The translations under genes were made by a program, and so were the position numbers. Below the pieces are notes generated by a model. It searched no databases, was not told the DNA's origin, and saw only the letters and a list, made by a program, of their open reading frames with translations. From positions 1 through 62,546 of IMG/VR virus record IMGVR_UViG_3300021962_000102: a stretch of 62,546 nucleotides of DNA; one strand, given 5' to 3'. The DNA is from a virus. Positions 16,112 through 54,734 of this stretch are shown one piece after another (the stretch's first letter is position 1; each line of letters begins with the position of its first letter).

Positions 16112-19100
16112 ATGCCAGAATTAAAGCGCGTGTTCACTTCGGGTAAAATGAACAAAGATCTTGACGAAAGACTTGTTCCACCTGGAGAATATAGAGATGC
16201 ATTAAATATACAAGTATCTAGCTCTGAAGGTTCTGACGTTGGAGCTGTAGAAAATATATTAGGTAACACTAAGAGAAATGTTAGGTCAGCAGTTGGACAA
16301 ACTGTTTGGCCTAGTGCTTTTGGTATTAATGGCACGTGCATTGGTTCAATAAGAGTTGACCAAGAAGAAAAAATATATTGGTTTATATCTGGTGTAACGG
16401 CAGATGCTATTGTAGAATACGATCAGCAGACAAACCAAGTTGCTCCTATACTAGTAGACAAGAACAGTATATTAAACTTTGATTCGTCAAAACTTATAAC
16501 TGGTATTAACTACCTTGAGGGTATGTTGATTTGGACTGACGACAACTACGAGCCAAAGAAAATAAATATATCTAGATTTAAATCTGGCAGCATTGACTTT
16601 AATACGCATACTGAAGTTTACGGAAGACCATTTATAAACCAAGACATAACTGTTATAAAAAGAAACCCTAGAGGAGTTCTTGGTGTTTCAATGAGCAGCA
16701 CACGAAAGGTTTTTCCAGAAACTGGCTGTGGTATATATCCAGTTTATACTGATTTTAATTTTACAGACGACGCTGGAGCTGGATTTTTTGTAGTAAAACC
16801 AGTTGGTTCTTCTGTCACGTTCACTACAGATGCTAGTGCAAACTGGGCAATAGGAGATGTAATATCATTGTCTGCTAGCGAACTAAATGATGAAAACTTT
16901 GAAGATGAGTTTGCCGTAAGAATAGAAGTAACTGCAAAGTCTGGAACTACTGTAACTGGTGATATTATAACGATATCTAGCAACATATTAGATCAAACAT
17001 ACACTTGGACCTGCATTTTAGAAGAAGAGCGTCCTATGTTTGAATTTAAATTCCCAAGATTTGCTTATAGGTGGAAATACATAGACGGAGAATATTCTAC
17101 GTTTTCACCGTTTACTGATGTTGTATTCCTTCCAAATAACTTCATATACAAATCATCCGACGCGTACAACGAGGGGATGACTAATAACATTCGCTCACTA
17201 ACATTGAATCTACAAGCAAAGTTGGGCGATACGGTTACATTAGACGATGTTCCAGACGACGTAGTAGAAATAGATATACTTTACAAAGAGTCAAATAGCA
17301 CTGTTGTATATAAGGTTGACTCAGTGCCAGTAACTCAAACATCTTACGCTATAACGTCTGAATTGATTGGTAATGTTATTTCAGCTAATCAATTGTTAAG
17401 ACCTTGGGATAACGTTCCTAGAAAAGCGAAAGCACAAGAAGTAATAGGTAATAGAATAGTTTACGGAAACTACGTACAGAACTATAACGGACCAAGCAAT
17501 GTTGATATAACGACTAGTTTGACGTCTAGTTCTGTTATACCTGGAACTCCTAAAAAGTCTATAAAGACGATGCGCTCGTACCAACTTGGTGTTGTATATG
17601 GAGATGAATTTGGTAGAGAAGCACCCGTCGTCACTGGCGCTGGTGGTTCTGTTACTGTAAATAAAGATTTATCTGATAACGCGCCTAGACTTAGTGCTAT
17701 AATAGAATCAACACCCCCAGCTTGGGCATCATACTTTAAATACTTTATAAAAGATACGTCTAATCAATATTACAACCTAGCGTTAGACAGATTCTACAAG
17801 GCCGACAGTGGTGGCGTTTGGTTATCTTTTCCAAGTGCAGAGAGAAGCAAAGTATCTATTGGAGATTATATATTACTGAAAAAAGAACATAATTCTTCTC
17901 TACCTGTAGATAAAGACGTAAGATATAGAGTTCTTGACATAAGTAATGAAGCTCCAACTGATGTTGTTGTTAAAAGAACATTTGAAGTTGGAAGCAAAGT
18001 AAATAAGGCAAGTGGTTCTAATCCAATGGGTGAAGATGTTATATCTTTTAGATTTAATGGCCCAACTCAAGTACAGAACACTAAGTTTTTTGAGGTTTGG
18101 AATGGTTCTGTTATAGTTAGATTCTGGAAAGGAAGTAATGTAACTGATTTTTACGAAATAGAATCTGGAGGATTCACAGGTGCAACCACGACTGAATACA
18201 GTGTTACGTTAAAAGAAAAACTTGGTGCAGACGCTGCTTGGATGGATACACTTGCCGCCGCAGATGAATTCAATGTTCAAGTTTATATAAACAAATACGT
18301 TTATAAAAAAGAGTATCAAGGCAAATTCTTTGTTAAAATAAATAGAGATCCATACTTTGATGAGTATATCATTAATCCATTAACCCAAATTTCTGGAACA
18401 TATAATAGAACTTTCGGTTCTATATTTATAGAAGATGCTCACCTTGATGATCCAACAGATACAATTAAAGAGCCTTCTGACTTTGCTTGGGGTGAGTTTG
18501 GAACCACAAATGAACCAGGAAAACCAAACCAAGGAAGCGCTAGTTTCTTTATATCATACGCACCCCACTCTAGTGGTGTTTCCGGTGGTAATATTGTTAC
18601 TACGGCATTGACTTCTGGAAAATCTTGGTTTGACACTGGTCTTGTTCCGGGAAGATTTATAAAGTTCATTAACGACCCTTCTCAAACTTATTATGAGATA
18701 GGTAACGTTTCAACTGTTTCTCAAGCTAGATTAGGAACTTCATTTCCATTTGGTTCAGACGACGCAGAACTTGTTAAGACTATAACTCTAACTGAGCAAA
18801 TAACAAATGACCCAGACTCTTGGGTTGATGCAGACTTTGAAATATTCATCAAGTCTACCGACTTTGAGGATATATTAGATTCTGATAATGTTATTATTAG
18901 TTCTTCTAATCCAGCTATATTTGAGACCGAACCAAAAGAAGCTGTTGATCTAGATATATACTACGAGGTTGGCGCTGCTTTTCCAATAAACAAACACGGC
19001 CTGCAGAATAATCTTGATTGGTTCAACTGTTTTGGTTTTGGAAACGGTGTTGAGTCAAACAGAATAAGAGACGACTTTAACGCCGTAACCATAGATAAAG

Positions 19101-20422
19101 GTCCAAGAGCTTCATCAACACTAGAAGAACCATATAACGAAGAAAGAAGAGGGAGTGGAATGATTTTCTCTGGTCTTTATAATTCAACTAGCGGTGTTAA
19201 TAATCTTAACCAGTTCTTAATAGCTGAAGACATAACAAAAGACTTAAACCCAACACATGGTACAATACAGAAACTTCACGCTAGAGACACAGATTTGATC
19301 GTACTGTGTGAAGATAAGATTTTCAACGTGATGGCCAATAAGGACGCATTATATGGCGCCGATGGTAATATTAATGTAACGTCTTCGAGAAACGTACTTG
19401 GTCAAGCGATACCATATGTTGGTGAGTTTGGTATTTCTAAAAATCCAGAGTCTTTTGCATCGTATGGTTTTAGAGCATACTTTACTGATAAGAATAGAGG
19501 TAGTGTTATAAGACTGTCTAGAGATGGTATAACTGAAATATCTAGAAAAGGTATGTCTTTTTACCTGAAAGCTGCGCTTGCAGACGCCACAAAAGCAATT
19601 GGTAGTTATGACGACTACAGCGATTGCTACAACCTAACAATAAACGGAGAAACAGTTTCTTTCGAAGAAGCAGTTGACGGTTGGAGTTCTAGAAAATCTT
19701 TTGTAGCTGAAAATGGTGTTTCAATGAACAATGTTTATTACACCTTCAAAAACGGCGAACTGTGGTCGCATGATAACACAAATAGATGTAATTTCTATGG
19801 TGTTCAATATCCAACTAGTATTGAGTTGATATACAACGATTCTCCAGGAAGAATAAAGAACTTCAAAACTCTTTCGTACGAAGGTTCGGAAGGTTGGGTT
19901 TCTCCTTTGATATATACCGATTCTCAAGATGCAGAAGTTCCTTTCTTTAAGAACAAAGAGGGAATATGGTATAACTACATCAAGGGTCTTGAAACAACTT
20001 GGAATAACAACACACAGAGTGGAAGTTTGGATCCAAGAGAATTTTCTGTTCAAGGAATAGACTACGTTGCCGAGGTAGAAATACAAGCTGGTAATTTAGT
20101 TAAGTTGACTTTTACAAACGCTATAAACGTCAGTATACAGGGAGGAATAAACCTAAAAGATGTTGTTTTTATAAAAAATTCAACTGGTAATATTTACTCT
20201 GTTGGAGATTGTATATCTGTTGACAATGAAGAAAACTTTATTATATGTACATTAGCAGCTGGAGTAACTATAAGTGTCGGTGATTTTGTTTTCTTTGCTA
20301 AGAACAGTCAAGTGAACACGTCAGGCATTATAGGTTACTATGCTAACGTTAAAATGGAAGTAAATTCTTCATCGTTTAAAGAACTGTTTGCTGTTAACTC
20401 AGAAGTATTCATAAGTAGTTAA
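16112..20422 (+). CDS. Large tail tubular / stabilization protein
   Basis: 1436 residues, beta-rich throughout. The N-terminus (GKMNKDLDERLVPPGEYRDA, then LNIQVSSSEGSDVGAVENI) is the signature of P22 gp10-like/crAss stabilization and T7 gp12-like tail-tube B proteins in Bacteroidota phages. A DGTNLI-like propeller repeat is less evident, but SRNVLGQAIPYVGEFGISKNPES near residue 1090 is typical of the family's C-terminal half. It probably forms the distal tail tube and receives the fibres. It is much longer than T7 gp12 (about 790). Confidence 0.8.
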   Translation: MPELKRVFTSGKMNKDLDERLVPPGEYRDALNIQVSSSEGSDVGAVENILGNTKRNVRSAVGQTVWPSAFGINGTCIGSIRVDQEEKIYWFISGVTADAIVEYDQQTNQVAPILVDKNSILNFDSSKLITGINYLEGMLIWTDDNYEPKKINISRFKSGSIDFNTHTEVYGRPFINQDITVIKRNPRGVLGVSMSSTRKVFPETGCGIYPVYTDFNFTDDAGAGFFVVKPVGSSVTFTTDASANWAIGDVISLSASELNDENFEDEFAVRIEVTAKSGTTVTGDIITISSNILDQTYTWTCILEEERPMFEFKFPRFAYRWKYIDGEYSTFSPFTDVVFLPNNFIYKSSDAYNEGMTNNIRSLTLNLQAKLGDTVTLDDVPDDVVEIDILYKESNSTVVYKVDSVPVTQTSYAITSELIGNVISANQLLRPWDNVPRKAKAQEVIGNRIVYGNYVQNYNGPSNVDITTSLTSSSVIPGTPKKSIKTMRSYQLGVVYGDEFGREAPVVTGAGGSVTVNKDLSDNAPRLSAIIESTPPAWASYFKYFIKDTSNQYYNLALDRFYKADSGGVWLSFPSAERSKVSIGDYILLKKEHNSSLPVDKDVRYRVLDISNEAPTDVVVKRTFEVGSKVNKASGSNPMGEDVISFRFNGPTQVQNTKFFEVWNGSVIVRFWKGSNVTDFYEIESGGFTGATTTEYSVTLKEKLGADAAWMDTLAAADEFNVQVYINKYVYKKEYQGKFFVKINRDPYFDEYIINPLTQISGTYNRTFGSIFIEDAHLDDPTDTIKEPSDFAWGEFGTTNEPGKPNQGSASFFISYAPHSSGVSGGNIVTTALTSGKSWFDTGLVPGRFIKFINDPSQTYYEIGNVSTVSQARLGTSFPFGSDDAELVKTITLTEQITNDPDSWVDADFEIFIKSTDFEDILDSDNVIISSSNPAIFETEPKEAVDLDIYYEVGAAFPINKHGLQNNLDWFNCFGFGNGVESNRIRDDFNAVTIDKGPRASSTLEEPYNEERRGSGMIFSGLYNSTSGVNNLNQFLIAEDITKDLNPTHGTIQKLHARDTDLIVLCEDKIFNVMANKDALYGADGNINVTSSRNVLGQAIPYVGEFGISKNPESFASYGFRAYFTDKNRGSVIRLSRDGITEISRKGMSFYLKAALADATKAIGSYDDYSDCYNLTINGETVSFEEAVDGWSSRKSFVAENGVSMNNVYYTFKNGELWSHDNTNRCNFYGVQYPTSIELIYNDSPGRIKNFKTLSYEGSEGWVSPLIYTDSQDAEVPFFKNKEGIWYNYIKGLETTWNNNTQSGSLDPREFSVQGIDYVAEVEIQAGNLVKLTFTNAINVSIQGGINLKDVVFIKNSTGNIYSVGDCISVDNEENFIICTLAAGVTISVGDFVFFAKNSQVNTSGIIGYYANVKMEVNSSSFKELFAVNSEVFISS

Positions 20423-20466: not shown

Positions 20467-21144
20467 ATGTTTCCAGTAATGGCGGCCGTTGGTGGCCTCG
20501 CTCAATTAGGCATGGGTCTTTATGGTATGAAAAGACGTAGGCAAGAAAGAAGAGAAGCTGACGTTGAGTTTTCTCAGGCCAAAGCTGCATACCAAAACTT
20601 AGACACTACAAACCCATATTTAAACCTTCAAAACCCATACGAAGATTTGTCTGTTAATACACAGCAGGCTGACTTTGTAGCGCAGCAGCAAAACCAAGGT
20701 CTTGCTAACACGCTTGACGCGATGAGCGGTGCTGCTGGTGGAAGTGGTATTGCGGCGTTAGCTCAAGCTATGGCTAACCAACAATCTCAGAATATGCAAG
20801 CCGCATCTGCGTCTATTGGACAGCAAGAAGCTAGTAATCAAGCTATGGCAGCCCAAGGTGCAGCTTCTATTCAGTCTATGGAAAGACAAGGTGAAGTATT
20901 GTCTAGAGGTTGGGAGCGTCAACAAGCGATTGGAGAAACAGAAATGGCCGACGCCAGATTAAGAAACATCAAGGCAGAACAACAATTAGCAACTAACCAA
21001 ATGCTTGGTGGAGTTGGCACGCTAACTGGAGTTGCTCTTGGCGGTGTTCAAAACGCTATCGAAACAATGGGAGACGCTGCTGCTCCGGTAATGCAGTATG
21101 GATTTGGAACCGGTAACATACTAACTGGTCAAAACTACAACTAA
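20467..21144 (+). CDS. Internal/ejection protein, gp14-like position
   Basis: 225 residues. It starts with a hydrophobic glycine-rich segment (AAVGGLAQLGMGLYGMKRRR) followed by an Ala/Gln/Met-rich helical body with little charge. This is the composition of small ejection proteins such as T7 gp14 and P22 gp7-like proteins, which enter the envelope on infection. It is the first of three genes arranged like T7 gp14-gp15-gp16. Its stop overlaps the next ATG. Confidence 0.68.
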   Translation: MFPVMAAVGGLAQLGMGLYGMKRRRQERREADVEFSQAKAAYQNLDTTNPYLNLQNPYEDLSVNTQQADFVAQQQNQGLANTLDAMSGAAGGSGIAALAQAMANQQSQNMQAASASIGQQEASNQAMAAQGAASIQSMERQGEVLSRGWERQQAIGETEMADARLRNIKAEQQLATNQMLGGVGTLTGVALGGVQNAIETMGDAAAPVMQYGFGTGNILTGQNYN

Positions 21145-22508
21145 TGGGAGATTTAGCATTTTTAGCGGCTCAAAAGCCGATTGGTGATCCAACTAGAACG
21201 GTAAACGCATCGGCCTTCACTGAGCCGATGTTCACCTATGGTAAACAAATAGAAGAGCAGAAAAAGCTTAAAGAAGAAAAGAGGAAGAACGCTGGTGCCA
21301 GAATGGAACGAGCAATTAACTCTATGACAAAGGCTTCTAATATAGATAAAGTTCCGGCGCCATATAAGAATTCTGTAAACCAGTTTCTTATGGCTCAGAA
21401 AAATAAATATTACGACGCCGCAAAGTTGCTCTCACAATCGGAGGTTGGTTCAGACAACTATATTGCTGCAGTAGAGCAGATGAACAATATAAACCAAAGT
21501 TTTACTAATCTTGATAAGCAACTACAGCTTTTATCAAGTAGGAAGTTAGAAGCAATAAATGATTTCGATAAAGGTTTGGTTTCCAAGGGAAACAGTCCTG
21601 ACGATGTAGACTGGTTGAGTAAAATGTATACGGACGGTCTGCCTATGCAAATAGGTGAAGGCGGTTCGTTGTATTTTGAGAAAAACGGATCTTATGTTCC
21701 GCTAGACGAAGCTCCAGACTACTTTGTTAAAGATTCTAAGGCGGCTAAGTCTATTATAGACCTTAACTCTAGAATATATAATGCTGGCATAGAGGATAAC
21801 GCAACCACGCGCCAGATGGTTAGAATGAACGTGAGGGAAATAGTTGAATCTGGAGGCAGAGAGACTGCTCTTTCACTTGCTGAGGATGATAGCATATACC
21901 CAGGTGGTCTTGGCATTGTAGATGAAGACCTACTTAGAAACCCAGCAAGATCAGAAGAGCTAAGCAATATAGTCATAGACAACTATACTGACTTGATAAT
22001 AAAGTCTGGTATTCAAGGTAATTCAGATAGACTTTCTAAACAGACTGCTGTTTCTGCTGCCAGATCTGCTGGTAGACCAAGTAGTTCAGCAAAGCAAGGT
22101 TCTTCTTTAAAGACATCTTGGTCAGAAGAAGAGTTGAACGCTTTGAATAGTAAAAACGTACCAGGTGTTAGAGAGGTTGTGCAAGCAATTGAAAGTAATG
22201 CAGATGCGTTTTTTAGAGGAATGAAGTACGATGGTTATGATATAACATCAGCTAAAGTTGCAAACAACGTTGTAACAATAACATACTTAAGGAATAAGCA
22301 ACCTATAACTTATTCTTTCAGTGTGAATAATCCAGAGAAAATTGCTAGTTTTGTTGATCAGAATTTCAGCAAAATTCTTGGATTAAATCCAACATCTAAA
22401 GAAGCAACTCAAGTAAAAACTACTATGAGAGCTTGGGTTAAAAAGAAATCTAGAGGAGCAGCTGGAGGATACTCTATAAGCACCAATGGTTTACCAATTA
22501 AACAATAA
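21144..22508 (+). CDS. Internal/ejection protein, gp15-like position
   Basis: 454 residues. The N-terminal 150 residues are helical and lysine-rich (EEQKKLKEEKRKNAGARMERA). The middle is mixed alpha/beta, and the C-terminus is basic (TTMRAWVKKKSRG). No enzyme motif is seen. Its position between a gp14-like gene and the 2293-residue gp16-like gene suggests an inner-core protein that travels with the DNA. The start codon overlaps the stop of the preceding gene. Confidence 0.62.
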   Translation: MGDLAFLAAQKPIGDPTRTVNASAFTEPMFTYGKQIEEQKKLKEEKRKNAGARMERAINSMTKASNIDKVPAPYKNSVNQFLMAQKNKYYDAAKLLSQSEVGSDNYIAAVEQMNNINQSFTNLDKQLQLLSSRKLEAINDFDKGLVSKGNSPDDVDWLSKMYTDGLPMQIGEGGSLYFEKNGSYVPLDEAPDYFVKDSKAAKSIIDLNSRIYNAGIEDNATTRQMVRMNVREIVESGGRETALSLAEDDSIYPGGLGIVDEDLLRNPARSEELSNIVIDNYTDLIIKSGIQGNSDRLSKQTAVSAARSAGRPSSSAKQGSSLKTSWSEEELNALNSKNVPGVREVVQAIESNADAFFRGMKYDGYDITSAKVANNVVTITYLRNKQPITYSFSVNNPEKIASFVDQNFSKILGLNPTSKEATQVKTTMRAWVKKKSRGAAGGYSISTNGLPIKQ

Positions 22509-22517
22509 CAAATAATC

Positions 22518-25500
22518 ATGGAAGATAATAAATCTTTGTTTCGTTACGACGGAAAAGACTACACTCGCGAACAGATAGATATAGCCGCTGCAGAAAGCGG
22601 TTTATCTTTTGATGATTATATAAGTGAATTTGGATTAGAGCCAATTGATCCTATAAAAAAGATAACGGCCACAGTGGGAGGTGCGACTGTGGATCCAAAA
22701 CCCAAAGCACCAAGTACGGCATCCAAGCCGGTCGCTACTTCATCGGCATCGAAATCAAGTCCGATCGTACCTGATCCAGTAAAGCAGGCAAAGCAAAATA
22801 TAGATTCAATATTGTCTAATCCGTTTAGCGCAGATGAACTTGATAATATTGAGGCTCAGGTAAACGCCAAGCCATCGGTTGGTGTTACTGCTACTACGTT
22901 TGTTGGCGGTATGGGTGGCGGTGTTCCAGTTGTAAGTAAAAAGCCAACATATCCATACGAATCTCAGATTAACGTTGCTAAAAAGCAACTTGGAGTTGGT
23001 GCTACTGAGCAACAGATAAATGATTTAGCTAAAAATCTATATAGAGAGGAGTTAAAGTCTAAACTGGTTAAAAGAAAAGTAGACAATGTACTAAATCAAC
23101 TTGAAGACGAGACAAATAACTGGCAGAGCGTTGGTGAATTTTTTGAATCAGGTCTTGTCACATTGTCAAATCTTGGCTTAGGCGGAAGTGGCCAAGGCGT
23201 TCAGCCAGCTAAGTCAACAAAAGAGAAGAGATACGAAGCTGCCAGACAAGATGTTTCAGCATATGCAACACAGAAGTTAAACGAGAGACAAAAACTGGTA
23301 AACAAATCTGTTGCTGGCGCTAAACTAGCTAGTGCTGTTGTAGAAACAAATATCAATCAATTAAAAGAGATTGAGAAGAACATAAAGAATTCTCAAGACG
23401 CTGTAGAACGCAATGATTTAATTAATCAATATAATGCTGTTCTTGATGACACTAAGTCTGCTGCTGCCGCTTTTGAAGAATACAACGGTGAAGTAAGAAA
23501 GAATATAGACTATGTAAACTACGGTTCTCAAATAGTAAAAGATATACCAAAGTCTTACAACGAGTTAGATGTTTTTGAGAATAGAGTATTTACAACCGCT
23601 CTTACAACCGCCGCTAATCTAGCTGAGTTTGGAGAGACGGGTTCTTTGTATATGCTTAAGGCGCATAATCCCTATGTTGATCCTCAAATAATCAAAGCCA
23701 CATACGCCACGCCTGCTGAATCTTTTGGTGAAGACGTAAGAGAAATAACTGATGCTGCCAGTGTTCAAGTTAGAGATCATAGACCACTTGGAGACATATC
23801 CTCTTGGTCTGACTTTGGCGAGTTTATGGTTGATCTTGCTGGAGACCAAGCTTTTAACACCGGTTTGATGTTTGCTACTGGCGGTGTTGCTGGCGGTGCA
23901 TTACTTGGAGCCGGCGCGGCGGGTGGCAAGATGACAGAGATGTGGGACGCTAGAGCTAAGGGTGAAAACATAAGCGACGCTAAGTTTTTAGGTACGGCAA
24001 TTATATACGGAGGAGCAGAATGGGGAAGTGAATACATCGGTTTCGGCCAGTTAAAGCGCTCTTCTAAAATACTGGCTGACGCACTAGATCAAGGTGCAGT
24101 AACGATGACGCAACTAGGAGAGTCTTTTGGTAAGAAACTTGGTTCTGGACTTCAAGAGTATGGCGTTAACGTGTCTCAAGAAGGTTTTACAGAAGCTGTT
24201 TCTCAACTTGGCCAAAATATCGCTGATATAACGCTACTTGGTCAAAATAAAAGCATATTTGAAGGAGTAGAAGAATCTTTTGTTACGGGTTCTTTGATGT
24301 CTGGTTTGATGTTTCAAGCTCCGACGGTTGTAGCTGGAACAGTTAAACTATTTAATACTGTAGATGAAGTAAAGCAGGTTGACATAAACCAGAAAGAAAT
24401 AAATAGATTAAAACTTCAGTCTATAGAATTATCAAAGCAGATAAAACAGAAAGAAAACGAGGGTGCTGATGCCGCCGAGATTCAAGGTATGTATAGCAAC
24501 AAGAAACAAATTGACGACGTAATAGACGATTTGGCGCTTGCTAACACGGCCTTAATGCAGACTGGTATAGAACGCATAGACAATCTAAGAGATATAGAAA
24601 AAAGCGCTGTTATAGAGCAGTCTAAAAAAATAGCTTTTGCAAATTCGCTAATAAAAAAATATCAAGACATGATTGACTCTAGTGTGGATCTAGATGAGTC
24701 AACAACGTCTGATTTAATAAGCGAAATAAAAAAACTAAACGAATACAAAGACTCTAGTATAGAAACAATAAATGATATAATCAAAGAGTCTGATTTCTCT
24801 AAAACGCTAGACAAAGCGTACAGTGCTATAGAGCAATTTTCTAGTTCAGAGAATGGAGTTCCAACTGATATAATGAAATTTAATGGAGACATTAAGACAA
24901 CATATCAGATGCAGCAGTTTCTTGAATCAGATAAGTTTGCAGCTTATGTAGAAAAAAGATACGGAAAAGAAAAGCTTCAGCAAATAAAGAACGAGGCTTA
25001 CAAGCAGATAAAATTAAACGCTGGTAAGTCTGGTCTAGACGCGTTTAAGTCGAATGAATCTAAGACCAAAGCAAATGCTTTGTTTTTGACTTTCCCAAAC
25101 TTTGACTTAGCTGATGGCACTGAAGTTGAAATGCCTAGGTTTATAGTTTTAAATACTAAAAACGGTCTACACCACGAAACTGGTCACGCAACATTGTTTA
25201 GTGCAATTAGAGAGTCGTACGGAACAGATATTCTATCTACGATGTCTGACTCACTGTTGACTGAACTTAATGCTATTTTTGAATCAGATCCTGATAAGTA
25301 CGAATACGCGTCTAGATTCATAAAGAAACGTGTAGCGATGTACGAACAGCAACACGCTGACTACATAAAGAAATACGCGAACCATCCAGAAATAGAAAAT
25401 ATCACCGCCTGGTCTGAATCTAGACTTGCTGAAGAAAAACTAATAGCTTTCCTTGATTACGTAAAAGATTCGAAGCTAGAGGTAAAAAATGAAGCTAGAT

Positions 25501-28500
25501 TAAAAAATATATTCAAGGCAGTATCAAACGTTCTGGGAAAGGATAAAATGCAAACCTACAACGTTAGAGATGGCAAGGATGTGATGAATATGCTTAGGTC
25601 ATTTAACATGCACTTCGACAAGAAGGACATCGGTACAATGATAAGAAGCATTAATGAAAAGAAACTTCTTGCTGACAATAAGCTTTCTGAGATAGATTCT
25701 AATCTTAAGAAATCAGCAGATATCTTCAGAAAGATAATGAAGTCATTTGCTTCTCTTGCTGATGATATAAAGCCAAGTGCACATCCAAACTCAATACAGG
25801 CTGATAAAGTAAACAAGCTGTACGAAGAAAAAGGTGTTGAAGCAGCTTACGAAATAGCTGAACTATACGGAGGCATGTTGCGCAATGTACTTAGAAGATT
25901 TAAGTATTTGCCTAATTACGAGAACTTCGTAGAGGATATAATGGACGCCGTTAAATACGGAGATAGAGGTTTGTTTGGACTTATAAAGTCTTTTGATCCA
26001 GAGCGTGGTGTTCCTTTAGCTGCATACATAAACAAATACTTAAGCAAGAGAGCACTTGGCTACATAACTGAATACTTAAATCCAGAAGCTGGGTTTATGA
26101 AAGACGTTACTGAGCAGAAAGGCTTAATGGCAGAAGAAGAATACGACTTTGAGATTGATAAGCCAGAGCGTTCACATTCTGTTATACGCAAGTTCTTAGG
26201 ACTTAGCGAAGACCAAATGAATAAGGTTAGAAAGGCAGTTATAAACGCACTAGTATTTAACCCAGACATTCATAAGAAAAGAAAGTGGGTTCCTAGTGAG
26301 TTTAAGAGCGAACTTCTAAAGTCTTTTGAGCTTGACTTGTTTAATCTTGTTAAGTCAGATATATTCCCAAGCAAAAACCAAGATTGGTACCAGTATGCTG
26401 ATCAGATGTATGAATGGATTATAAACGAAGTTCCTATGGAAGTTTGGTTGAGATCCGGCGTTAGCATATTCTACGAGCCAGACATCGACCCAGTAAACAA
26501 TAAGCAAAAAAGGATGACGCCAGGTGAAGCTGAAATGGCTGGTGTTGCAGATATAAATTCTGGTAGATACAAGTGGATTGCTAAAAAGCCGACTAAAGAA
26601 CAGTGGATGGAATACATAAAGGCAGAAGGTATTAATCCAAACACTGGAAAGCCTTATTCTTGGACTACTGTTGGTACTAGAAAAGATACTATAGCCAAAA
26701 TTCTAGCTAGAGAGATGGCTTTTGATGCTACTCTAGAGGTCTTGCAAAATCCAGAACAGCCAACGTACGACTTTGATGGAAATCCAGACGGAGGAAGCAT
26801 AAATGTGATTCACAGAATGACATTGATGTCAGGACAAGAGTATAACAAACTCGCCGTTGTAGCTCAAGTTGCAGATATAATAAACAGAGACCCTAGAGTT
26901 ATGTTTAGTCTATCTGATGGCGGTTCTGTTGATAATAGATCAGCTGCGGCTGCGTTATTCGCAGAAGCTGAACTTATATTCCAAGAAATGGAAATTGTGT
27001 CTGAAGACGTTTCTGACTTGGCCGACGCGTACTCTAGTATCATAATAGATATACTAGATGAAAAGATGAAGGCCGCCGGAATGAAACCAATGTCTGAGAC
27101 TAAGAAGTTAGAGATAATTGAATCTGTACTGGCTATTAAATTCAAGGACGAAAGCAAAGAAAGCGAAGCCTGGAACAAAATCAGGACAGCCGGTATGATT
27201 AGTGTTGCTAAAAGTCTTTCTCAAGCTAGAGCAAAGAGCAAAACACTAATAGAAAGCAACGCACAAACCGCTAGAGAAATAGCTAATGAGATCAGACAAG
27301 AGATAGGTCTTTCTATGACTGCCAGAGAGAAAGAACTTAGCGATAGATTCAATAAGCTTTTGGAAAAGACTTTTGGAATAAAGCAAGGTAAAGTGTTCTC
27401 TGATTTCGATGCTCAAGTTGCGGCAAGCAAGCGATCTATACTTAAGAGTATGGAACTTATGCCTGTGACTGCTGAAGATTTTATTGGTCTTCTATATAGA
27501 ACTTTGTCTCCTGGCAAAGATGGCGAAGATCAAATGGCTTTTTATAGAAAATTCCTTTTGTATCCTTTCTACGACGGGGCAACAAGACACGACGCTGCGC
27601 GTGTTAGAATACTTAGCGGTTATAAAAAGTTAATCCAAGTAAAAAACAACAAGCACAAGCAGTTTAAAAAGATAGCATTCGGAAACTATACTATAGAACA
27701 CGTAATCAGAATAGCCATATGGAATAAGACTGGCGAATCTATAAGTGGTATTAGTTCTGAAGACGTTAAGTCAGCTATTGACTTTGCTAGAAAGATGCCT
27801 TGGGTCAATGAGATCGCAGACGATATAATTGAGATAATGGCACCAGATGGTTATGGTAAGCCACAGCAGAACTGGTTTTTGGGTAACATCGAAAACGATC
27901 TATACAACGCCATAAACGGTCATGTAAGAAAGAATAGAATGAAGGAGTTTGCTACAAACGCCGACGCTATATTCAATGAGTATAATATGAACAAAATACA
28001 AGCTGTGCTTGGTGGTTCATACAGGTTTGCTCTTCAGAACACACTTGAGCGGATGAAGTCTGGTAAGAACAGAATCGCAACTCAAAACGCTTGGGAAAGA
28101 AAGCTCAACAACTGGATAAATGGTTCTGTAGGTGCAATCATGTTCTTGAACATGCGAAGCGCCGTGCTTCAGCTTGTTTCTATGGGTAACTATATAAACT
28201 GGTCTGACAACAATCCAGTTGCTATCGCTAAGGCATACGCTAACACGAAGCAAATGGGTCAAGACATACTCAAGCTTTGGAACTCTGACTTTATGGTTAC
28301 TCGTAGAGATGGTCGTAAGATTGATATCAACGAGGCTGAATTGGTAGAGATGCTAGAAGAGTCTGGTGCTAATCTTGGAAAAATAATCAACTGGATTATA
28401 CAAAAAGGATTCACGCCTACGCAAGTTGCTGACTCAATGGCCATTATACTTGGTGGTGCTCCGTTCTACAGAAATAGAGTTAATACATACCTAAAAGAAG

Positions 28501-29399
28501 GTATGGATTTGAAGAAAGCAGAAGACAAAGCATTTCTTGATTTCAGAGAAACAACTGAAGAATCTCAACAGTCTTCTAGACCAGACCGTATATCACCACA
28601 GCAAGCTAGCTCAGCTGGTAGAATAATCTTGGCATTTGCTAACACTCCAGCTCAGTATTCTAGATTGATGATCAAAGCGGCTAAAGATATAAAGAACGGC
28701 AGAGGCGATCTTAAGACAAACATAAGCAAAATTGCTTACTACGCTATTATTCAGAATATGATATTTAGCTATATGCAGCAGGGTTTGTTTGCGTTATTAT
28801 TCTCTGACGACGAAGAAGAGGTTTCAGAAAAAGAAGCTACAGATTTGATCAACAGTGCCGCTGATTCTATACTTCGCGGTTTTGGAATACAGGGCGCGAT
28901 AATCTCTACATTGAAAAACGTAGCTATAGAATACGGTAGACAAGCAGAAGCGGGAAGATTTAAATCAGATAAAATCTTGCTTCAAGCTGCTAGTATATCT
29001 CCTCCTATTGGAAACAAGGTTAGAAAGATAAACAACATAATGTATAATTCTAGCCAAGTAACAAAAGAAGCCAAGAAGACTGGAGAATATGACTTTACTT
29101 CTAGACCAACTTTAGAAATTGCTGCTGGAGCTATAGAACTAGGTACCAACTTGCCATTGACTAGAGCATTGTCTAAATATGATAACGTCATATCAGCAAT
29201 GAACGAGGACACGCATGTTGTACTTAGAACAGCGATGCTATTTGGTTGGCCAGAGTGGCAATTAATCAAAGAAGAAGATGAAAAATCGTACAAGCCAATG
29301 TCTCAAGATGAATTCGTTGAGCAGATTAAGTCTAAGCAAACCGAAGACTCTGGAGCAATGAGCGAAGAAGATTATATAAACAGTTTAAACAAAAAATAA
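22518..29399 (+). CDS. Giant internal virion/polyvalent protein with metallopeptidase and sigma-like segments
   Basis: 2293 residues, in the gp16-like position after two ejection-type genes. Seen in the sequence: a Pro/Ser/Ala-rich linker at about 60-90; a hydrophobic glycine-rich stretch near 455-475; long charged helices at 620-830; an HExxH zinc-peptidase motif (HHETGH) at about 885-890; and a segment at about 1115-1190 that follows sigma-70 region 2, with GLFGLIKSFDPERG matching the -10-binding core and YLSKRALGYI the following helix. The remainder is helical and resembles large polyvalent phage proteins. Such proteins are ejected with DNA and act early. I saw no lytic transglycosylase motif. 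The sigma match is by eye and needs structural support. Confidence 0.8.
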   Translation: MEDNKSLFRYDGKDYTREQIDIAAAESGLSFDDYISEFGLEPIDPIKKITATVGGATVDPKPKAPSTASKPVATSSASKSSPIVPDPVKQAKQNIDSILSNPFSADELDNIEAQVNAKPSVGVTATTFVGGMGGGVPVVSKKPTYPYESQINVAKKQLGVGATEQQINDLAKNLYREELKSKLVKRKVDNVLNQLEDETNNWQSVGEFFESGLVTLSNLGLGGSGQGVQPAKSTKEKRYEAARQDVSAYATQKLNERQKLVNKSVAGAKLASAVVETNINQLKEIEKNIKNSQDAVERNDLINQYNAVLDDTKSAAAAFEEYNGEVRKNIDYVNYGSQIVKDIPKSYNELDVFENRVFTTALTTAANLAEFGETGSLYMLKAHNPYVDPQIIKATYATPAESFGEDVREITDAASVQVRDHRPLGDISSWSDFGEFMVDLAGDQAFNTGLMFATGGVAGGALLGAGAAGGKMTEMWDARAKGENISDAKFLGTAIIYGGAEWGSEYIGFGQLKRSSKILADALDQGAVTMTQLGESFGKKLGSGLQEYGVNVSQEGFTEAVSQLGQNIADITLLGQNKSIFEGVEESFVTGSLMSGLMFQAPTVVAGTVKLFNTVDEVKQVDINQKEINRLKLQSIELSKQIKQKENEGADAAEIQGMYSNKKQIDDVIDDLALANTALMQTGIERIDNLRDIEKSAVIEQSKKIAFANSLIKKYQDMIDSSVDLDESTTSDLISEIKKLNEYKDSSIETINDIIKESDFSKTLDKAYSAIEQFSSSENGVPTDIMKFNGDIKTTYQMQQFLESDKFAAYVEKRYGKEKLQQIKNEAYKQIKLNAGKSGLDAFKSNESKTKANALFLTFPNFDLADGTEVEMPRFIVLNTKNGLHHETGHATLFSAIRESYGTDILSTMSDSLLTELNAIFESDPDKYEYASRFIKKRVAMYEQQHADYIKKYANHPEIENITAWSESRLAEEKLIAFLDYVKDSKLEVKNEARLKNIFKAVSNVLGKDKMQTYNVRDGKDVMNMLRSFNMHFDKKDIGTMIRSINEKKLLADNKLSEIDSNLKKSADIFRKIMKSFASLADDIKPSAHPNSIQADKVNKLYEEKGVEAAYEIAELYGGMLRNVLRRFKYLPNYENFVEDIMDAVKYGDRGLFGLIKSFDPERGVPLAAYINKYLSKRALGYITEYLNPEAGFMKDVTEQKGLMAEEEYDFEIDKPERSHSVIRKFLGLSEDQMNKVRKAVINALVFNPDIHKKRKWVPSEFKSELLKSFELDLFNLVKSDIFPSKNQDWYQYADQMYEWIINEVPMEVWLRSGVSIFYEPDIDPVNNKQKRMTPGEAEMAGVADINSGRYKWIAKKPTKEQWMEYIKAEGINPNTGKPYSWTTVGTRKDTIAKILAREMAFDATLEVLQNPEQPTYDFDGNPDGGSINVIHRMTLMSGQEYNKLAVVAQVADIINRDPRVMFSLSDGGSVDNRSAAAALFAEAELIFQEMEIVSEDVSDLADAYSSIIIDILDEKMKAAGMKPMSETKKLEIIESVLAIKFKDESKESEAWNKIRTAGMISVAKSLSQARAKSKTLIESNAQTAREIANEIRQEIGLSMTAREKELSDRFNKLLEKTFGIKQGKVFSDFDAQVAASKRSILKSMELMPVTAEDFIGLLYRTLSPGKDGEDQMAFYRKFLLYPFYDGATRHDAARVRILSGYKKLIQVKNNKHKQFKKIAFGNYTIEHVIRIAIWNKTGESISGISSEDVKSAIDFARKMPWVNEIADDIIEIMAPDGYGKPQQNWFLGNIENDLYNAINGHVRKNRMKEFATNADAIFNEYNMNKIQAVLGGSYRFALQNTLERMKSGKNRIATQNAWERKLNNWINGSVGAIMFLNMRSAVLQLVSMGNYINWSDNNPVAIAKAYANTKQMGQDILKLWNSDFMVTRRDGRKIDINEAELVEMLEESGANLGKIINWIIQKGFTPTQVADSMAIILGGAPFYRNRVNTYLKEGMDLKKAEDKAFLDFRETTEESQQSSRPDRISPQQASSAGRIILAFANTPAQYSRLMIKAAKDIKNGRGDLKTNISKIAYYAIIQNMIFSYMQQGLFALLFSDDEEEVSEKEATDLINSAADSILRGFGIQGAIISTLKNVAIEYGRQAEAGRFKSDKILLQAASISPPIGNKVRKINNIMYNSSQVTKEAKKTGEYDFTSRPTLEIAAGAIELGTNLPLTRALSKYDNVISAMNEDTHVVLRTAMLFGWPEWQLIKEEDEKSYKPMSQDEFVEQIKSKQTEDSGAMSEEDYINSLNKK

Positions 29400-29787: not shown

Positions 29788-31563
29788 CTAACCATCACAA
29801 GATAAACAATCTGGATCCATAGCTGATGAAGCTATATCTCCACGAAGCACAGACTCTGTACGCATATAGTACAACGTCTTAACGCCCCTTTTCCAAGCTT
29901 CCATGTGAACTGTGTTTATCCACTTTGGTGTTGCTTCTTTTGGGAATGCCATATTCAAACTAACGCTTTGATCAACGTACTGTTGTCTTATGCCAGCTTG
30001 CTTAACTAGTTCTAATTGATTTATTTCTTTGAACGTTTTAAATACATCTTTTACTTTGTCAGATTCTGATAAAGCTAAAGCGTCTGATTCTATTTCAGAG
30101 TAATTAACCAATTTTCCTTTGTGGAAATACCAATTGTCAAGCTCTTCAATGCCTTGGACAGAACCCCCATCTTCTAAAATCTTATTCCAAGTTTCTGGTG
30201 TGTTAATACCAATGCGCTTGAAAATCTTTTCTAGCTCTGGATTCTTCCTAATAAAAGTACCTTTGGCAGATTGCTCTGTGAAAACATTAGCAGCCCAAGG
30301 TTCAATACCTGGTGAAACGTTTCCGCTTAACTTAGAGTTTGAAACAGTAGGAGCTATAGCACGTAAATGCGTGTTTCGCATACCAGTACCAGAACACCAT
30401 TGTGGTTCTCCGTATATGTCAGCTAGATCACGACTTGCTCTTTCGCTTTCTATTTTTATTTGCTGAAATATAGCTCTAGTTGCAAATTGGGCTTGCAAAC
30501 CCTCAAAAGGTATTCCACGCTGCTGTAGATATGTGTGCCATCCGAGTACACCCAGGCCAAGTGCCCGTCCCTTTTCAGCGGAGCGAACCGAATTTTCGAA
30601 GCCCTTCATATTCTTGGCTTTCTGGATGAACTCTTCTAGAATACCATCTAAGAAGAACGTGGAATAGTATATTAGATCTGTGTCTTTCCATTCGTCATAC
30701 TTAGCAAGATTAACACTTGATAAGCAGCATACAAAACTATGAATCTCATCAGTGTGCAATGCTATTTCAGAACAGATGTTTGTCATATGAACTTTTAGTC
30801 CATTGATTTTATAAGCTTCAGGATTCTGTTTATTCACATTACCCTTAAACATAATGTAAGGCTCACCAGTTGCTTTGCGTTTCTGCAGTAGCTTACTCCA
30901 TTTACGTCTAGCGTCTGGATCACCGTGTTCAAGCTTACGCATAAACTTATCACCAACAATTGCGCATTGATGAAGGTTTAGCGATTGTCTATTGACATCT
31001 CCTTTAGGTTCACGGATCTCAAGCCAGTCTTCAAAGTCTGCGTGGTCAATGTTTAGATTAACCGATGCAGCACCTCGTCTAACTGAACCTTGGCTGGTGG
31101 CGAGTATAGTTGAGTCAAATATTTTGCAGAAAGGAACAACGCCATCAGTAGTGCCGTTATCAGTAATTCTAGAACCAGCTGGTCTAATCATATTGATACC
31201 AATACCAACACCTCCACCGTGTTTTGCTAATAGCATCATTTCTAGGTTTTTAGAACCTATTTCGAAAACGCTATCACCAACGTCAATACCAAAGCAAGAT
31301 ATTGGCAAACCTCTATCAGTGCCAGTATTAGACAATACAGGAGAGGCAAGATTCAACCAGCCTTCCCAGATAAAGTTAAAGAACTTTTCTGCTAGCTCTG
31401 GCTTGTGTAATCTGCGAGCCGCTGTTTTAGCAACGCGATAGTAAGCCTCTCTAGGAGTTTCGTCTGGCAGTAAGTAACCACCAGTTATGGTCTTCTTATA
31501 GACCTCAGTGTCTCCCCACTTTGGATAGTCTTGACCTTTTACCCAATCGTTATTCCATTTCAT
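29788..31563 (-). CDS. nrdA: Ribonucleotide reductase large subunit (class I)
   Basis: 591 residues. It reduces ribonucleotides to deoxyribonucleotides with the NrdB-like partner at 31768. Seen: the first redox Cys in ISCFGID near residue 90; the active-site loop NICSEI near 262 with Asn, the radical Cys and Glu; the second redox Cys in CCLSS near 276; the radical-transfer Tyr pair in LYYMRTES near 565; and a C-terminal CLSCDG thioredoxin-exchange pair. It is shorter than cellular NrdA (about 760) because the N-terminal ATP-cone is missing, so dATP inhibition is probably lost. It is the last gene of the nrd operon. Confidence 0.95.
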   Translation of the reverse strand: MKWNNDWVKGQDYPKWGDTEVYKKTITGGYLLPDETPREAYYRVAKTAARRLHKPELAEKFFNFIWEGWLNLASPVLSNTGTDRGLPISCFGIDVGDSVFEIGSKNLEMMLLAKHGGGVGIGINMIRPAGSRITDNGTTDGVVPFCKIFDSTILATSQGSVRRGAASVNLNIDHADFEDWLEIREPKGDVNRQSLNLHQCAIVGDKFMRKLEHGDPDARRKWSKLLQKRKATGEPYIMFKGNVNKQNPEAYKINGLKVHMTNICSEIALHTDEIHSFVCCLSSVNLAKYDEWKDTDLIYYSTFFLDGILEEFIQKAKNMKGFENSVRSAEKGRALGLGVLGWHTYLQQRGIPFEGLQAQFATRAIFQQIKIESERASRDLADIYGEPQWCSGTGMRNTHLRAIAPTVSNSKLSGNVSPGIEPWAANVFTEQSAKGTFIRKNPELEKIFKRIGINTPETWNKILEDGGSVQGIEELDNWYFHKGKLVNYSEIESDALALSESDKVKDVFKTFKEINQLELVKQAGIRQQYVDQSVSLNMAFPKEATPKWINTVHMEAWKRGVKTLYYMRTESVLRGDIASSAMDPDCLSCDG

Positions 31564-31756
31564 CTTCGCTTATTGCTTTTTTAGTTTTTTCAACAAGCGA
31601 ATCCATAGCCTTTTGATAGTCAGGCAACTGCTTAACTAATTCCATTGTGCCAACACTAAGGTTACGCATATATTCAATTTCGCGCAGCATGTTTTGCAGT
31701 ACAGAACCAAGTGTTTCTATTTGGTTCCGCATTTTAATAAGTTCTTGTTCTTTCAT
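31550..31756 (-). CDS. Small helical protein between nrdB and nrdA
   Basis: 68 residues, entirely helical with heptad-like spacing (MRNQIETLGSVLQNMLREIEYM). It lies between the two reductase genes and overlaps the nrdA start by 14 nt, so it is co-translated. It may be an accessory of the reductase or only a filler gene. No domain is recognised. Confidence 0.65.
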   Translation of the reverse strand: MKEQELIKMRNQIETLGSVLQNMLREIEYMRNLSVGTMELVKQLPDYQKAMDSLVEKTKKAISEDEME

Positions 31757-31767
31757 TTTATTTAATT

Positions 31768-32760
31768 TTACCAGATGTCTTCGAAGTCTTCTGACTCTCC
31801 AGCTTTTGAATAATCAGTTGGTCTAATGGCAAAGAAGTCAGTATGTGTAACTCCTCCAGTTAAATGGTAGAACCAATCTAGTTCAGATGCCATTTGTTTA
31901 TCGTATTCGAAAATAGCTTCGTAACCTAACTCAATTAGTTTTTCGTTAGCGCGTTTTTTAATAAACTCTTTAAGATCAGATGCTTTAAGATTCTCAAGGT
32001 CTCCCATCTCAAACATCTTGTCAATAAAGTTGATTTCCATTTCAACAGCAATTCTAGCTGCGTCTTCAACTTTCTTTCTAACTTGAGTTCTAATCTCAGG
32101 ATGTTCTGAACATAGATGATTAAACAGCGTGCATCCCATCTTGCTGTGAAGACTCTCATCACGCACAGACCATTTCATTTGCTGTCCAATGCCTTTGAGC
32201 AGATTTCTCATCTGAAACGAATACAATACAGCAAAAGATGAATACAATGAAACTCCTTCAGCGAACGCGGAAAAAACTGCTATTGATCTAGCTACATCTT
32301 CGCGGCACTTAGGGCACTTTGAAAGCATGTTGTGATCATAACCTGCCTTTGTATTAACTAGGTTTTCAAATCTAGCAGCAGTAGCTGGCTCGTGCAAAAA
32401 AGCTTCGAAGTCCTCAAGACCAAGTGTTTCGTTAAGATAACTATATGCAGCCGCGTGGATTGTTTCTTGCGAACCAAACATCATTGCCATTTGCTTTATC
32501 TCATGCTTTGGAAACCACTTAGTTACCATAGTGGTCCAGTAATCGCCAACTGCAGTTTCAGTCTGCGCGAAACCCAATAGTATATTACCAACCAGATTAC
32601 GTTCAGCATCAGTTAGGTTCTCTTTGAAATCTTTGACATCGCCCTGCATTGATATTTCAGTGTGAAGCCAAAATGCTTGAGCTTGCTTAAGCCAACCCTC
32701 AGTGTAATACTCTGGGTACTCGAAAGGCTTATAAGCTATTCTTTCGGTAAAAATTCCCAT
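31768..32760 (-). CDS. nrdB: Ribonucleotide reductase small subunit
   Basis: 330 residues, the radical-generating subunit. Metal ligands are visible in QETIHAAAY near residues 97-105 (Glu, His, and the radical Tyr four residues on), AEGVSLY near 165, and RDESLHSKMG near 201 (Glu and His). The Tyr at +4 after the first His indicates a tyrosyl-radical enzyme rather than a Tyr-less class Ic. A CPKCRED segment near 148 is an unusual insert with two Cys. It leads the nrd operon. Confidence 0.95.
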   Translation of the reverse strand: MGIFTERIAYKPFEYPEYYTEGWLKQAQAFWLHTEISMQGDVKDFKENLTDAERNLVGNILLGFAQTETAVGDYWTTMVTKWFPKHEIKQMAMMFGSQETIHAAAYSYLNETLGLEDFEAFLHEPATAARFENLVNTKAGYDHNMLSKCPKCREDVARSIAVFSAFAEGVSLYSSFAVLYSFQMRNLLKGIGQQMKWSVRDESLHSKMGCTLFNHLCSEHPEIRTQVRKKVEDAARIAVEMEINFIDKMFEMGDLENLKASDLKEFIKKRANEKLIELGYEAIFEYDKQMASELDWFYHLTGGVTHTDFFAIRPTDYSKAGESEDFEDIW

Positions 32761-38782: not shown

Positions 38783-39532
38783 TTATAAATGGTCTAATAT
38801 TTGGGAATGATCTGTGTTTGCAATTAGTTTATCTATGGCGTCTTTTTTTATTTGGGACACCCTAACGTGAGCTGTTTCTACAAATATTCCTATTTTTTCA
38901 GCTATCTGTTTGGCATTGTGTTTTTCACAATCAAGACCATAGCTTAATCTAAGGACTTCATATTCTCTATCGTTAAGGTTCTTTTTCAAAAGACCCATTA
39001 GATAAGTATTAAGTATGTCTATATTATATGGCTCTGATGAGTCTGGTATGTCGTAGATATAGTTGTCGTCCACATTTGGTTGTTCATCAACAGATAAGAA
39101 TATGCTATTGAAGAACATTGCAACCATTTCTTTGTCTTTTCCACTGTCTTTTCTGATTTGGTTGATTTTGTGTTCGGGTATGCGTATATCACCTCTGTTT
39201 TTGTCGATGGCTCTACGTATTGCACCTTTGATTCTCTTTGATAAGAACGATATGATTGTTTTTTCTTTGTCATCGCTTCTTTCTACTTTTTCCCAATCTA
39301 TTTTATCAACAGCAGTAACCAAACCAATGTTGCCTTCCTGTATTAGGTCTTCTATGTTGAGAACGCCTATTGCTTGCTGTGTAGTAGTAAACTTTCTAGC
39401 AATGCCTTCTACAAGAGGTAAGAACATTGTTATAATGTCATCTCTATGTCTAGAATCTCTATCAACTCTAGATAAAAAGAATTCTACATCTTTTTTGTAT
39501 TTAACGTAATTCGTTATGTTGTACTTTTTCAT
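38783..39532 (-). CDS. Phage sigma factor (sigma-70 family)
   Basis: 249 residues. Region 2: EDLIQEGNIGLVTAVDKID near 68, then FLSKRIKGAIRRAID. Region 3: IRIPEHKINQIRK near 117. Region 4: LNDREYEVLRLSYGLDC near 187, with a helix-turn-helix ending VETAHVRVSQIKKDA. All parts of a small sigma factor are present, and region 1.1 is absent. It would redirect host RNA polymerase to phage promoters. It overlaps the HTH gene upstream by 32 nt. It is quite different from the RpoD-like sigma at 45984. Confidence 0.88.
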   Translation of the reverse strand: MKKYNITNYVKYKKDVEFFLSRVDRDSRHRDDIITMFLPLVEGIARKFTTTQQAIGVLNIEDLIQEGNIGLVTAVDKIDWEKVERSDDKEKTIISFLSKRIKGAIRRAIDKNRGDIRIPEHKINQIRKDSGKDKEMVAMFFNSIFLSVDEQPNVDDNYIYDIPDSSEPYNIDILNTYLMGLLKKNLNDREYEVLRLSYGLDCEKHNAKQIAEKIGIFVETAHVRVSQIKKDAIDKLIANTDHSQILDHL

Positions 39533-43978: not shown

Positions 43979-44055
43979 TGGCACCCCTGACAGGAATCGA
44001 ACCTGTAACCTACGCATTAGAAGTGCGTTGCTCTATCCAGTTGAGCTACAGGGGC
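43979..44055 (-). tRNA. tRNA-Arg (UCU)
   Basis: A complete cloverleaf on the minus strand: acceptor GCCCCTG with CAGGGGT (one G-U pair), D-arm with TAGCTCAACTGGATAGA, anticodon loop CTTCTAA between ACGCA and TGCGT, and T-arm with GGTTCGATTCC. The 3' CCA is encoded. AGA, read by this tRNA, appears frequently in the phage genes (many 'aga' codons), so it may aid translation. Confidence 0.93.
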
Positions 44056-45893: not shown

Positions 45894-46005
45894 TTTTTTC
45901 TGATTTTTTATCTAGGTATTTTGACAATAAGAATACTGATACTAAAAACAATAGGAATATTGAAAACGGTATAATCTTGTTTACTACAGTAAGATACTTG
46001 AGCAT
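45877..46005 (-). CDS. Tiny membrane protein (42 aa)
   Basis: One predicted transmembrane helix (IIPFSIFLLFLVSVFLL) followed by a Lys/Glu-rich cytoplasmic-type tail ending NEKDK. Starts inside the end of the sigma-factor gene and overlaps the next gene. Small early phage membrane proteins often interfere with the host, but no role can be assigned. Confidence 0.5.
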   Translation of the reverse strand: MLKYLTVVNKIIPFSIFLLFLVSVFLLSKYLDKKSEKNEKDK

Positions 46006-46844
46006 TTTTTATTTCTTTTTAATCTATTTAATCCGCTGTCTTTTAGTTGACGCGCTTTTTCATCTGGAATATCTAATTCCATAGCTATTTGCTTAATAGT
46101 CTTGGCATGTTCAAACGCGCCTAAATACATTGACACAACCTTGAAGTGCATTGGATTTAAAACCTTCTCTGCAGTTTTCCAAAACAGATTTACTGTAGAC
46201 TCCTGTGTTATATCTTCATCTGGTTGTGCGTAGGTTGTGTTAGGCAACACATCAGATATTGTAGTTGATGATTCATCTCCAGACAGCGTAGCGTCGCTAG
46301 ACGTCATCTCTGCGGTGTGGTTGAACATGTCTAAAACAAAACTCTCTTCAACGCCAAGATGTTCTGCAATCTCAAAAGGTTCTGGTTCTCTAAACAGTTT
46401 CTGCTCGAGCTCAGACGATGCCTTGCGTATCCTATTCATATTGGCATTCCTATTGCCTGGCGTGTATATCTGCTTTGACTTAGTGTCAATTGAGTGTAGT
46501 ATACTCTGCCTGATCCACCACACGGCGAACGATATGAACTTAAAACCTCTTGTTGGATCGAACCTGTCAACAGCCTTAATAAGGCCGATGTTGCCTTCTG
46601 ATATTAAGTCTTCAAGCTTCATACCAGATACTTGATACTGCTTGGCGACAGATACAACAAACCTTAAGTTTGCGCGCGTTAGTTTTTCTTTTGCAACTGG
46701 ATCCCCTGTTTCGTAAATGATTTTAGTTAATTCAAATTCTTCTTCTGGCGTTAATAGTTTTTCTTTAGAAAGCTCTAAAAAGTATTTATCTATTGATTTG
46801 CTTTCGCGTTTAGTAATCTGATTGGCGATCTTAAGTTGGCGCAT
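45984..46844 (-). CDS. RpoD-like sigma factor of Bacteroidota type
   Basis: 286 residues. The start MRQLKIANQITKRES and the 286-residue length match the compact housekeeping RpoD of Bacteroidota, indicating capture from a host. Region 2 is strongly conserved: LTRANLRFVVSVAKQYQ, DLISEGNIGLIKAVDRFDP, RGFKFISFAVWWIRQSIL. Region 3.0 (YTPGNRNANMNRI) and especially region 4 (LNPMHFKVVSMYLGAFEH, then IPDEKARQLKDSGLNRLK) are much altered, so core-binding and -10 reading are kept while -35 recognition probably changed. Likely drives phage middle or late promoters. Confidence 0.9.
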   Translation of the reverse strand: MRQLKIANQITKRESKSIDKYFLELSKEKLLTPEEEFELTKIIYETGDPVAKEKLTRANLRFVVSVAKQYQVSGMKLEDLISEGNIGLIKAVDRFDPTRGFKFISFAVWWIRQSILHSIDTKSKQIYTPGNRNANMNRIRKASSELEQKLFREPEPFEIAEHLGVEESFVLDMFNHTAEMTSSDATLSGDESSTTISDVLPNTTYAQPDEDITQESTVNLFWKTAEKVLNPMHFKVVSMYLGAFEHAKTIKQIAMELDIPDEKARQLKDSGLNRLKRNKKCSSILL

Positions 46845-54699: not shown

Positions 54700-54707
54700 T
54701 AAATTTG
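54700..54707 (+). promoter_or_regulatory. Bacteroidota-type -7 box before groEL
   Basis: TAAATTTG matches TAnnTTTG, 27 bp before the groEL start. A -33 TTG is not clear. Suggests use of host RNA polymerase for the chaperone genes. Confidence 0.35.
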
Positions 54708-54734
54708 TGTAGTGTTACACAAAAAATTACTATA

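Follow-up and report, generated by a model that had tools for sequence, protein, structure and literature searches.

The question raised by this locus is whether a giant, ejection-type phage protein carries a domain derived from region 2 of sigma-70 and, if it does, whether that domain could act on transcription as the phage genome enters its host. The window, by which we mean the whole 62,546-nucleotide stretch analysed (IMG/VR record IMGVR_UViG_3300021962_000102), comes from a crAssphage-related virus. The gene concerned and its recognisable parts are as follows.

22518..29399, + strand: open reading frame of the giant protein (P0001, 2293 aa), a polyvalent, ejection-type virion protein
23778..24788, + strand: N-terminal block (residues 421-757) with homologues in the giants of phages phi38:1, elemoA, phi19:3 and Panino
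25173..25187, + strand: HETGH zinc-metallopeptidase (zincin-type) motif, residues 886-890, an HExxH upstream of the domain
25791..26087, + strand: sigma2-like domain, residues 1092-1190, with the Pfam-matched core 1115-1179 at 25860-26054
26160..26516, + strand: helical region after the sigma2-like domain, residues 1215-1333, kept by many relatives and matching no known family
27330..29270, + strand: C-terminal block, residues 1605-2251, shared by more than 60 relatives at about 35-42% identity

The original prediction had placed a segment resembling sigma-70 region 2 at residues 1115-1190, positions 25850-26090. The residue range stands and corresponds to nucleotides 25860-26087; nucleotide 25850 is out of frame. 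The motifs lie where they had been put, namely EDIMD, GLFGLIKSFDPERG from residue 1151 (nucleotide 25968), and YLSKRALGYI. In a Pfam search with the whole 2293-residue protein no family ranks above Sigma70_r2 (E=0.013, residues 1115-1179, 15.8 bits against a cut-off of 24 bits), and with the isolated segment it is the sole family (E=6.7e-4). The Pfam scores of the domain run from E=0.013 to 2.8e-4 and from 15.8 to 21 bits, all under the 24-bit cut-off. The segment has nine matches in NCBIfam, every one a sigma family (best E=6.3e-4), and phmmer against the PDB returns sigma chains for 10 of 11 matches, the best with E=0.0023. Sigma70_r2 is also found at the homologous place, below the cut-off, in five relatives about 15-40% identical (L062, L028, L046, L017 and L034). 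The signal carried by the one sequence is more than chance would give, yet marginal.

Scans for close relatives using the whole giant or the segment alone retrieved nothing; a synteny search based on the muzzle (tail nozzle) protein worked. A muzzle-profile search of IMG/VR gave 80 loci, among which the segment recurs in giant open reading frames directly after the muzzle. By a strict profile there are 19 members at these loci, the window included, and this core was used because an iterated 290-residue profile (38 hits) risks drift. Scanning again, now with the core alignment, we confirmed 189 IMG/VR stretches; 80 were fetched, and in all 80 the domain lies inside a long open reading frame. 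The domain is present in 99 giant proteins of the related phages examined. Its alignment of 66 rows shows 88-97% identity at key positions, and just three of the 66 members reach E<=0.1 against Sigma70_r2 on their own sequence. The family is absent from the curated libraries used, its consensus has no match among 50,697 phage records, and the literature searched, which was thin on subscription papers, holds no earlier description of a giant ejection-type protein with a sigma2-like domain.

What does the family say that the single sequence does not? Searching with a model of stand-alone sigma factors, phage and bacterial, does not bring out the giants directly (E=1.1 for the best of them), and the link therefore needs profile-profile comparison. 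Aligned with hhalign to a profile of stand-alone phage sigma factors, the domain scores 30 (E=4e-5, 75 columns), as opposed to at most 15.8 for 60 column shuffles. Among 99 protein windows taken from the virion proteins of this phage the top three are those that overlap the domain, and the other 96 score no higher than 16.5. The comparison with bacterial sigma factors alone is not decisive, since the domain scores 22 and the best unrelated protein window 21; windows of protein P0002 score 20-21 there, which we treat as noise level. A six-frame scan of 395 Bacteroidota genomes with the domain profile gave two best matches (E=3.7e-5 and 2.6e-4 per genome), both to closely related FliA/WhiG-type sigma factors aligned in region 2. 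The other three matches of that scan (E 1e-3 to 7e-3) belong to unrelated proteins and lie at the level expected by chance. The designed repeat protein 7rdr, top of one PDB profile search, was rejected as a sum of weak repeats.

The fold was modelled with AlphaFold2 from 66 sequences, giving a core pLDDT of 92-96 over most of model residues 11-90 and a pTM of 0.71. Helices are predicted at model residues 2-28, 30-38, 46-59, 64-69 and 79-99, and the model agrees with the sigma2 arrangement of helix 2.1, a kinked helix 2.2 and helices 2.3-2.4. Foldseek against the PDB finds 16 matches at E<=10, and sigma-factor entries account for 10. The best is RpoS (6omf_F; probability 0.98, TM 0.52, 3.5 Å rmsd over 97 columns). 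Against BFVD the top match is an uncharacterized viral protein of 1475 residues (TM 0.73), and at ranks 2-16 most entries carry the name of a phage sigma factor. No Foldseek E-value is individually significant, the best being 0.34 (PDB) and 0.10 (BFVD). The structure search nonetheless returned mainly sigma factors, and not the blank HHpred or fold comparison, or the unrelated helical bundle, that the original prediction had named as evidence against itself. A first AlphaFold2 model (277 residues, 18 rows) had a pLDDT of 70 and was set aside as too uncertain; its matches were non-significant, though mostly to sigma factors. The likeness of residues 1115-1190 to sigma-70 region 2, as proposed, is borne out by Pfam, NCBIfam, PDB, profile and fold evidence, and with sequence, profile and fold evidence taken together the domain is very probably homologous to that region.

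Would such a domain be carried in the virion? The genes upstream of the giant bear on this.

16112..20422, + strand: muzzle (tail nozzle) protein, 1436 aa, Pfam crAss_MUZ_C (E=8e-9)
20467..21144, + strand: first ejection-type gene, 225 aa, syntenic with phi38:1 gp99
21144..22508, + strand: second ejection-type gene, 454 aa, syntenic with phi38:1 gp100

The muzzle is 32-34% identical to its counterparts in Cellulophaga phage phi38:1 and the Flavobacterium elemo phages. The order muzzle, small, medium, giant is common to phi38:1, elemo, phi19:3 and Panino, and the longer order from terminase and portal through to the muzzle and these three genes is shared by the window, phi38:1 and the elemo phages. 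The place of the giant at the end of three ejection-type genes, as first read from the sequence, agrees with this arrangement: it follows the muzzle in the order seen for the virion genes annotated in phi38:1 and relatives. Block 421-757 matches the giants of phi38:1, elemoA, phi19:3 and Panino in profile searches with E=6e-24, 3e-24, 6e-18 and 9e-12, respectively, and phi38:1 gp101, elemoA gp21 and phi19:3 gp129, which are homologous to this block, are annotated structural proteins. We infer packaging of the giant in this phage from that homology to annotated structural proteins; judged from gene order and sequence, the giant with its sigma2-like domain is very likely virion cargo. Both ribonucleotide reductase subunits (29788-32760, - strand) adjoin the giant gene on the opposite strand. 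Elsewhere the window encodes a GroEL (54705-56306, + strand, PHROG E=8.8e-134) and a tRNA-Arg (TCT; 43979-44055, - strand), the only tRNA found.

The giant is a large multidomain protein encoded in a late virion operon and bears an HExxH motif. Its position after the muzzle, the one block related to gp101 and the HExxH before the domain support, at the level of sequence, the layout of a polyvalent ejection protein. The order of parts recurs in the giants: N-terminal ejection block, metallopeptidase motif, sigma2-like domain and conserved C-terminal block. Outside block 421-757 the giant differs from phage to phage, which is typical of polyvalent proteins. The C-terminal 650 residues match no known family, though they are the best conserved part of the giant. 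The elemoA giant (L005:2564-13648, 3694 aa) has a DUF3293 and an HExxH of its own, and the sigma2-like domain was not found in it; judged from this protein, the middle part of the giants seems to be swapped between phages.

The transcription genes of these phages provide a further context. There are two stand-alone sigma genes in the window.

45984..46844, - strand: stand-alone sigma-70 factor, 286 aa, Pfam regions 1.2, 2, 3 and 4, Bacteroidota primary-sigma type
38783..39532, - strand: second stand-alone sigma-70-like factor, 249 aa, Sigma70_r2 (40.7 bits), PHROG 351 (E=2.8e-23)

The first shares up to 46% identity with primary-type sigma factors of Bacteroidota, and a full sigma factor is unusual for a 62-kb podovirus-type genome. 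The second is divergent, and PHROG 351, which it matches, is annotated as RNA polymerase sigma factor; it recurs as an open reading frame of 250-275 residues in near-complete relatives. A Sigma70_r2-matching open reading frame of about that size occurs in all 11 near-complete domain-bearing genomes of one survey, in three of them below the cut-off, and several domain-bearing genomes of another comparison have a stand-alone sigma gene too. In phi38:1, elemoA, elemoD, Panino, phi19:3, MW202828 and crAss001 we found neither a stand-alone sigma gene matching Sigma70_r2 nor the sigma2-like domain in the giant. Domain and stand-alone sigma gene may occur together by common descent within one clade, and not for a functional reason. 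The crAss001 RNA polymerase gp50 has no match in the window or in 14 relatives, at a BLAST level of comparison that a very divergent polymerase could escape. The DFDxD catalytic motif of the crass-type virion RNA polymerase is absent from P0001, and a DFDGNPD string near residue 1418, considered as a polymerase motif, was rejected as it is absent at the like place in relatives.

What might the domain do? The description 'sigma2-derived domain, probably virion-delivered' is supported. Given homology to sigma2 and a place in the virion, we put the chance that the domain acts on transcription at slightly better than even. The whole reading, of a sigma2-like domain in a polyvalent ejected protein that acts at the first transcription on the entering genome, we hold tentatively, a little short of an even chance. 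On this reading the giant would be packed and then ejected together with the phage DNA, and the domain possibly freed after ejection by the neighbouring peptidase. It could then bind promoter-type DNA through its kept aromatic and basic helix, or engage host RNA polymerase, and so help the host enzyme and the stand-alone sigma factors of the phage to start phage genes. Entry into the cell and contact with host RNA polymerase or promoter DNA are steps that we infer. A broader version, in which a large group of uncultured crAss-related phages deliver a sigma-derived domain fused to peptidase and ejection parts as a replacement for a packaged RNA polymerase, with the host polymerase captured or redirected before any phage expression, is possible but doubtful.

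Conservation, mapped onto the numbering of E. coli sigma70, shows what has been kept. Scaffold positions are retained: D403 is Asp in 70% of sequences, G408, G411 and G424 are Gly in 84%, 91% and 85%, and F419 is Tyr in 88% and Phe in 11%. Region 2.2, part of the core-polymerase interface in sigma70 through Gln406, Glu407 and Asn409, is altered, with Q406 to Glu or Leu, E407 to Thr or Ile and N409 to Lys or Glu; of the core-binding set that a functional sigma factor has (D403, Q406, E407, N409) D403 alone is kept, at the 70% given. Direct binding to polymerase in the standard mode is uncertain because these residues are mostly changed. Pfam recognises neither region 3 nor region 4, the latter concerned with -35 and flap binding, in the giant, and the full set of regions is found only in the stand-alone sigma gene. 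The most conserved part of the domain is the equivalent of regions 2.3 and 2.4. On the -10 face F427 is Leu in 97%, Y430 is aromatic (Tyr 89%, Trp 8%, Phe 2%), W433 is Lys in 79% and W434 is Phe (48%) or Tyr (26%), 74% in all; nearby on the helix T432 is Asn in 97% and A438 is Arg in 89%. The stand-alone phage sigma factor P0016 likewise has lysine at the W433 place. As read from the alignment, the domain keeps the scaffold and the DNA-facing helix in altered form, without the usual polymerase-binding signature.

This pattern would also suit a sigma2-derived module for handling nucleic acid that has lost polymerase binding and holds DNA in the capsid or guides its entering end. The best-kept positions are those equivalent to 2.3 and 2.4 (Leu427, Tyr430, Asn432, Lys433 and Arg438), the core-binding face of 2.2 is changed and the giant sits among ejection proteins. 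Against this, the consistent presence of stand-alone sigma factors in domain-bearing genomes suggests a transcription context, and the DNA binding invoked is itself putative; we regard DNA handling as a rather unlikely explanation.

Alternatively the role of the domain might be tied to the metallopeptidase beside it, as partner or as substrate. It could be a sigma mimic by which a host protein that binds sigma, for instance an anti-sigma factor, is brought to the peptidase, or a spacer that the enzyme cuts in maturation or ejection. In 93 of the 99 domain-bearing giants an HExxH lies 144-294 residues (median 165) before the domain, a near-fixed spacing, and there are 94 such motifs in all 223,213 residues of these proteins. 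No domain is commoner in polyvalent proteins than the zincin-like peptidases, which have been proposed to process them (PMC5512222). No peptidase family of Pfam matched the giant, the zincin assignment being by the HExxH motif. Modules can travel together without joint function, and we consider a role as peptidase partner or substrate decidedly unlikely. The least probable alternative is a convergent, small, all-helical bundle with no homology to sigma: the individual fold and sequence scores are marginal and all-helical domains yield spurious matches, but several libraries and methods agree on sigma factors, aligned in one register, where shuffled, reversed and unrelated-window controls do not, and the unbiased scan of Bacteroidota genomes ranks two FliA/WhiG-type sigma factors first.

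Comparison with known systems sets the tentatively favoured reading, a virion-delivered domain acting at first transcription, in context. The domain shares with sigma-70 region 2, in particular that of FliA/WhiG-type factors and of the phage's own sigma factors, the order of helices and both profile and fold matches; a DxIxxGxxG motif is followed by a Y/F-x-P-x-x-G turn and then a long helix with an aromatic residue. Unlike sigma-70 it lies inside a virion-type protein of 1000-3300 residues with no recognised region 3 or 4, and most core-binding residues and W433 are changed. The structural proteins phi38:1 gp101 and elemo gp21 occupy the same place and are homologous over residues 421-757, but we found no sigma2-like domain in either and their genomes lack a Sigma70_r2 match. 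Mass spectrometry of crAss001 virions detected gp47 together with the RNA polymerase-associated gp49 and gp50 (PMC10172136). In that phage too the muzzle and two cargo genes precede a giant gene, whose product gp47 also has an HExxH; P0001 differs in having no sequence match to gp47, gp49 or gp50. The N4-like virion RNA polymerase is again a giant ejected protein with a transcription module beside a zincin-type metallopeptidase (PMC5512222, a text in which the word 'sigma' does not occur). N4 carries a whole RNA polymerase, whereas in the giant described here a sigma2-like domain is recognised and a polymerase is not. Whether a virion carries a sigma-like module becomes a testable question, and if it does, takeover of host transcription may begin while phage DNA is still entering. 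Relatives without a recognisable crAss-type polymerase have both stand-alone sigma genes and, within a packaged-type giant, a sigma2-like domain. If that domain is active in transcription, a third route to the expression of phage genes at DNA entry would join those of crAss001 and the N4-like phages.
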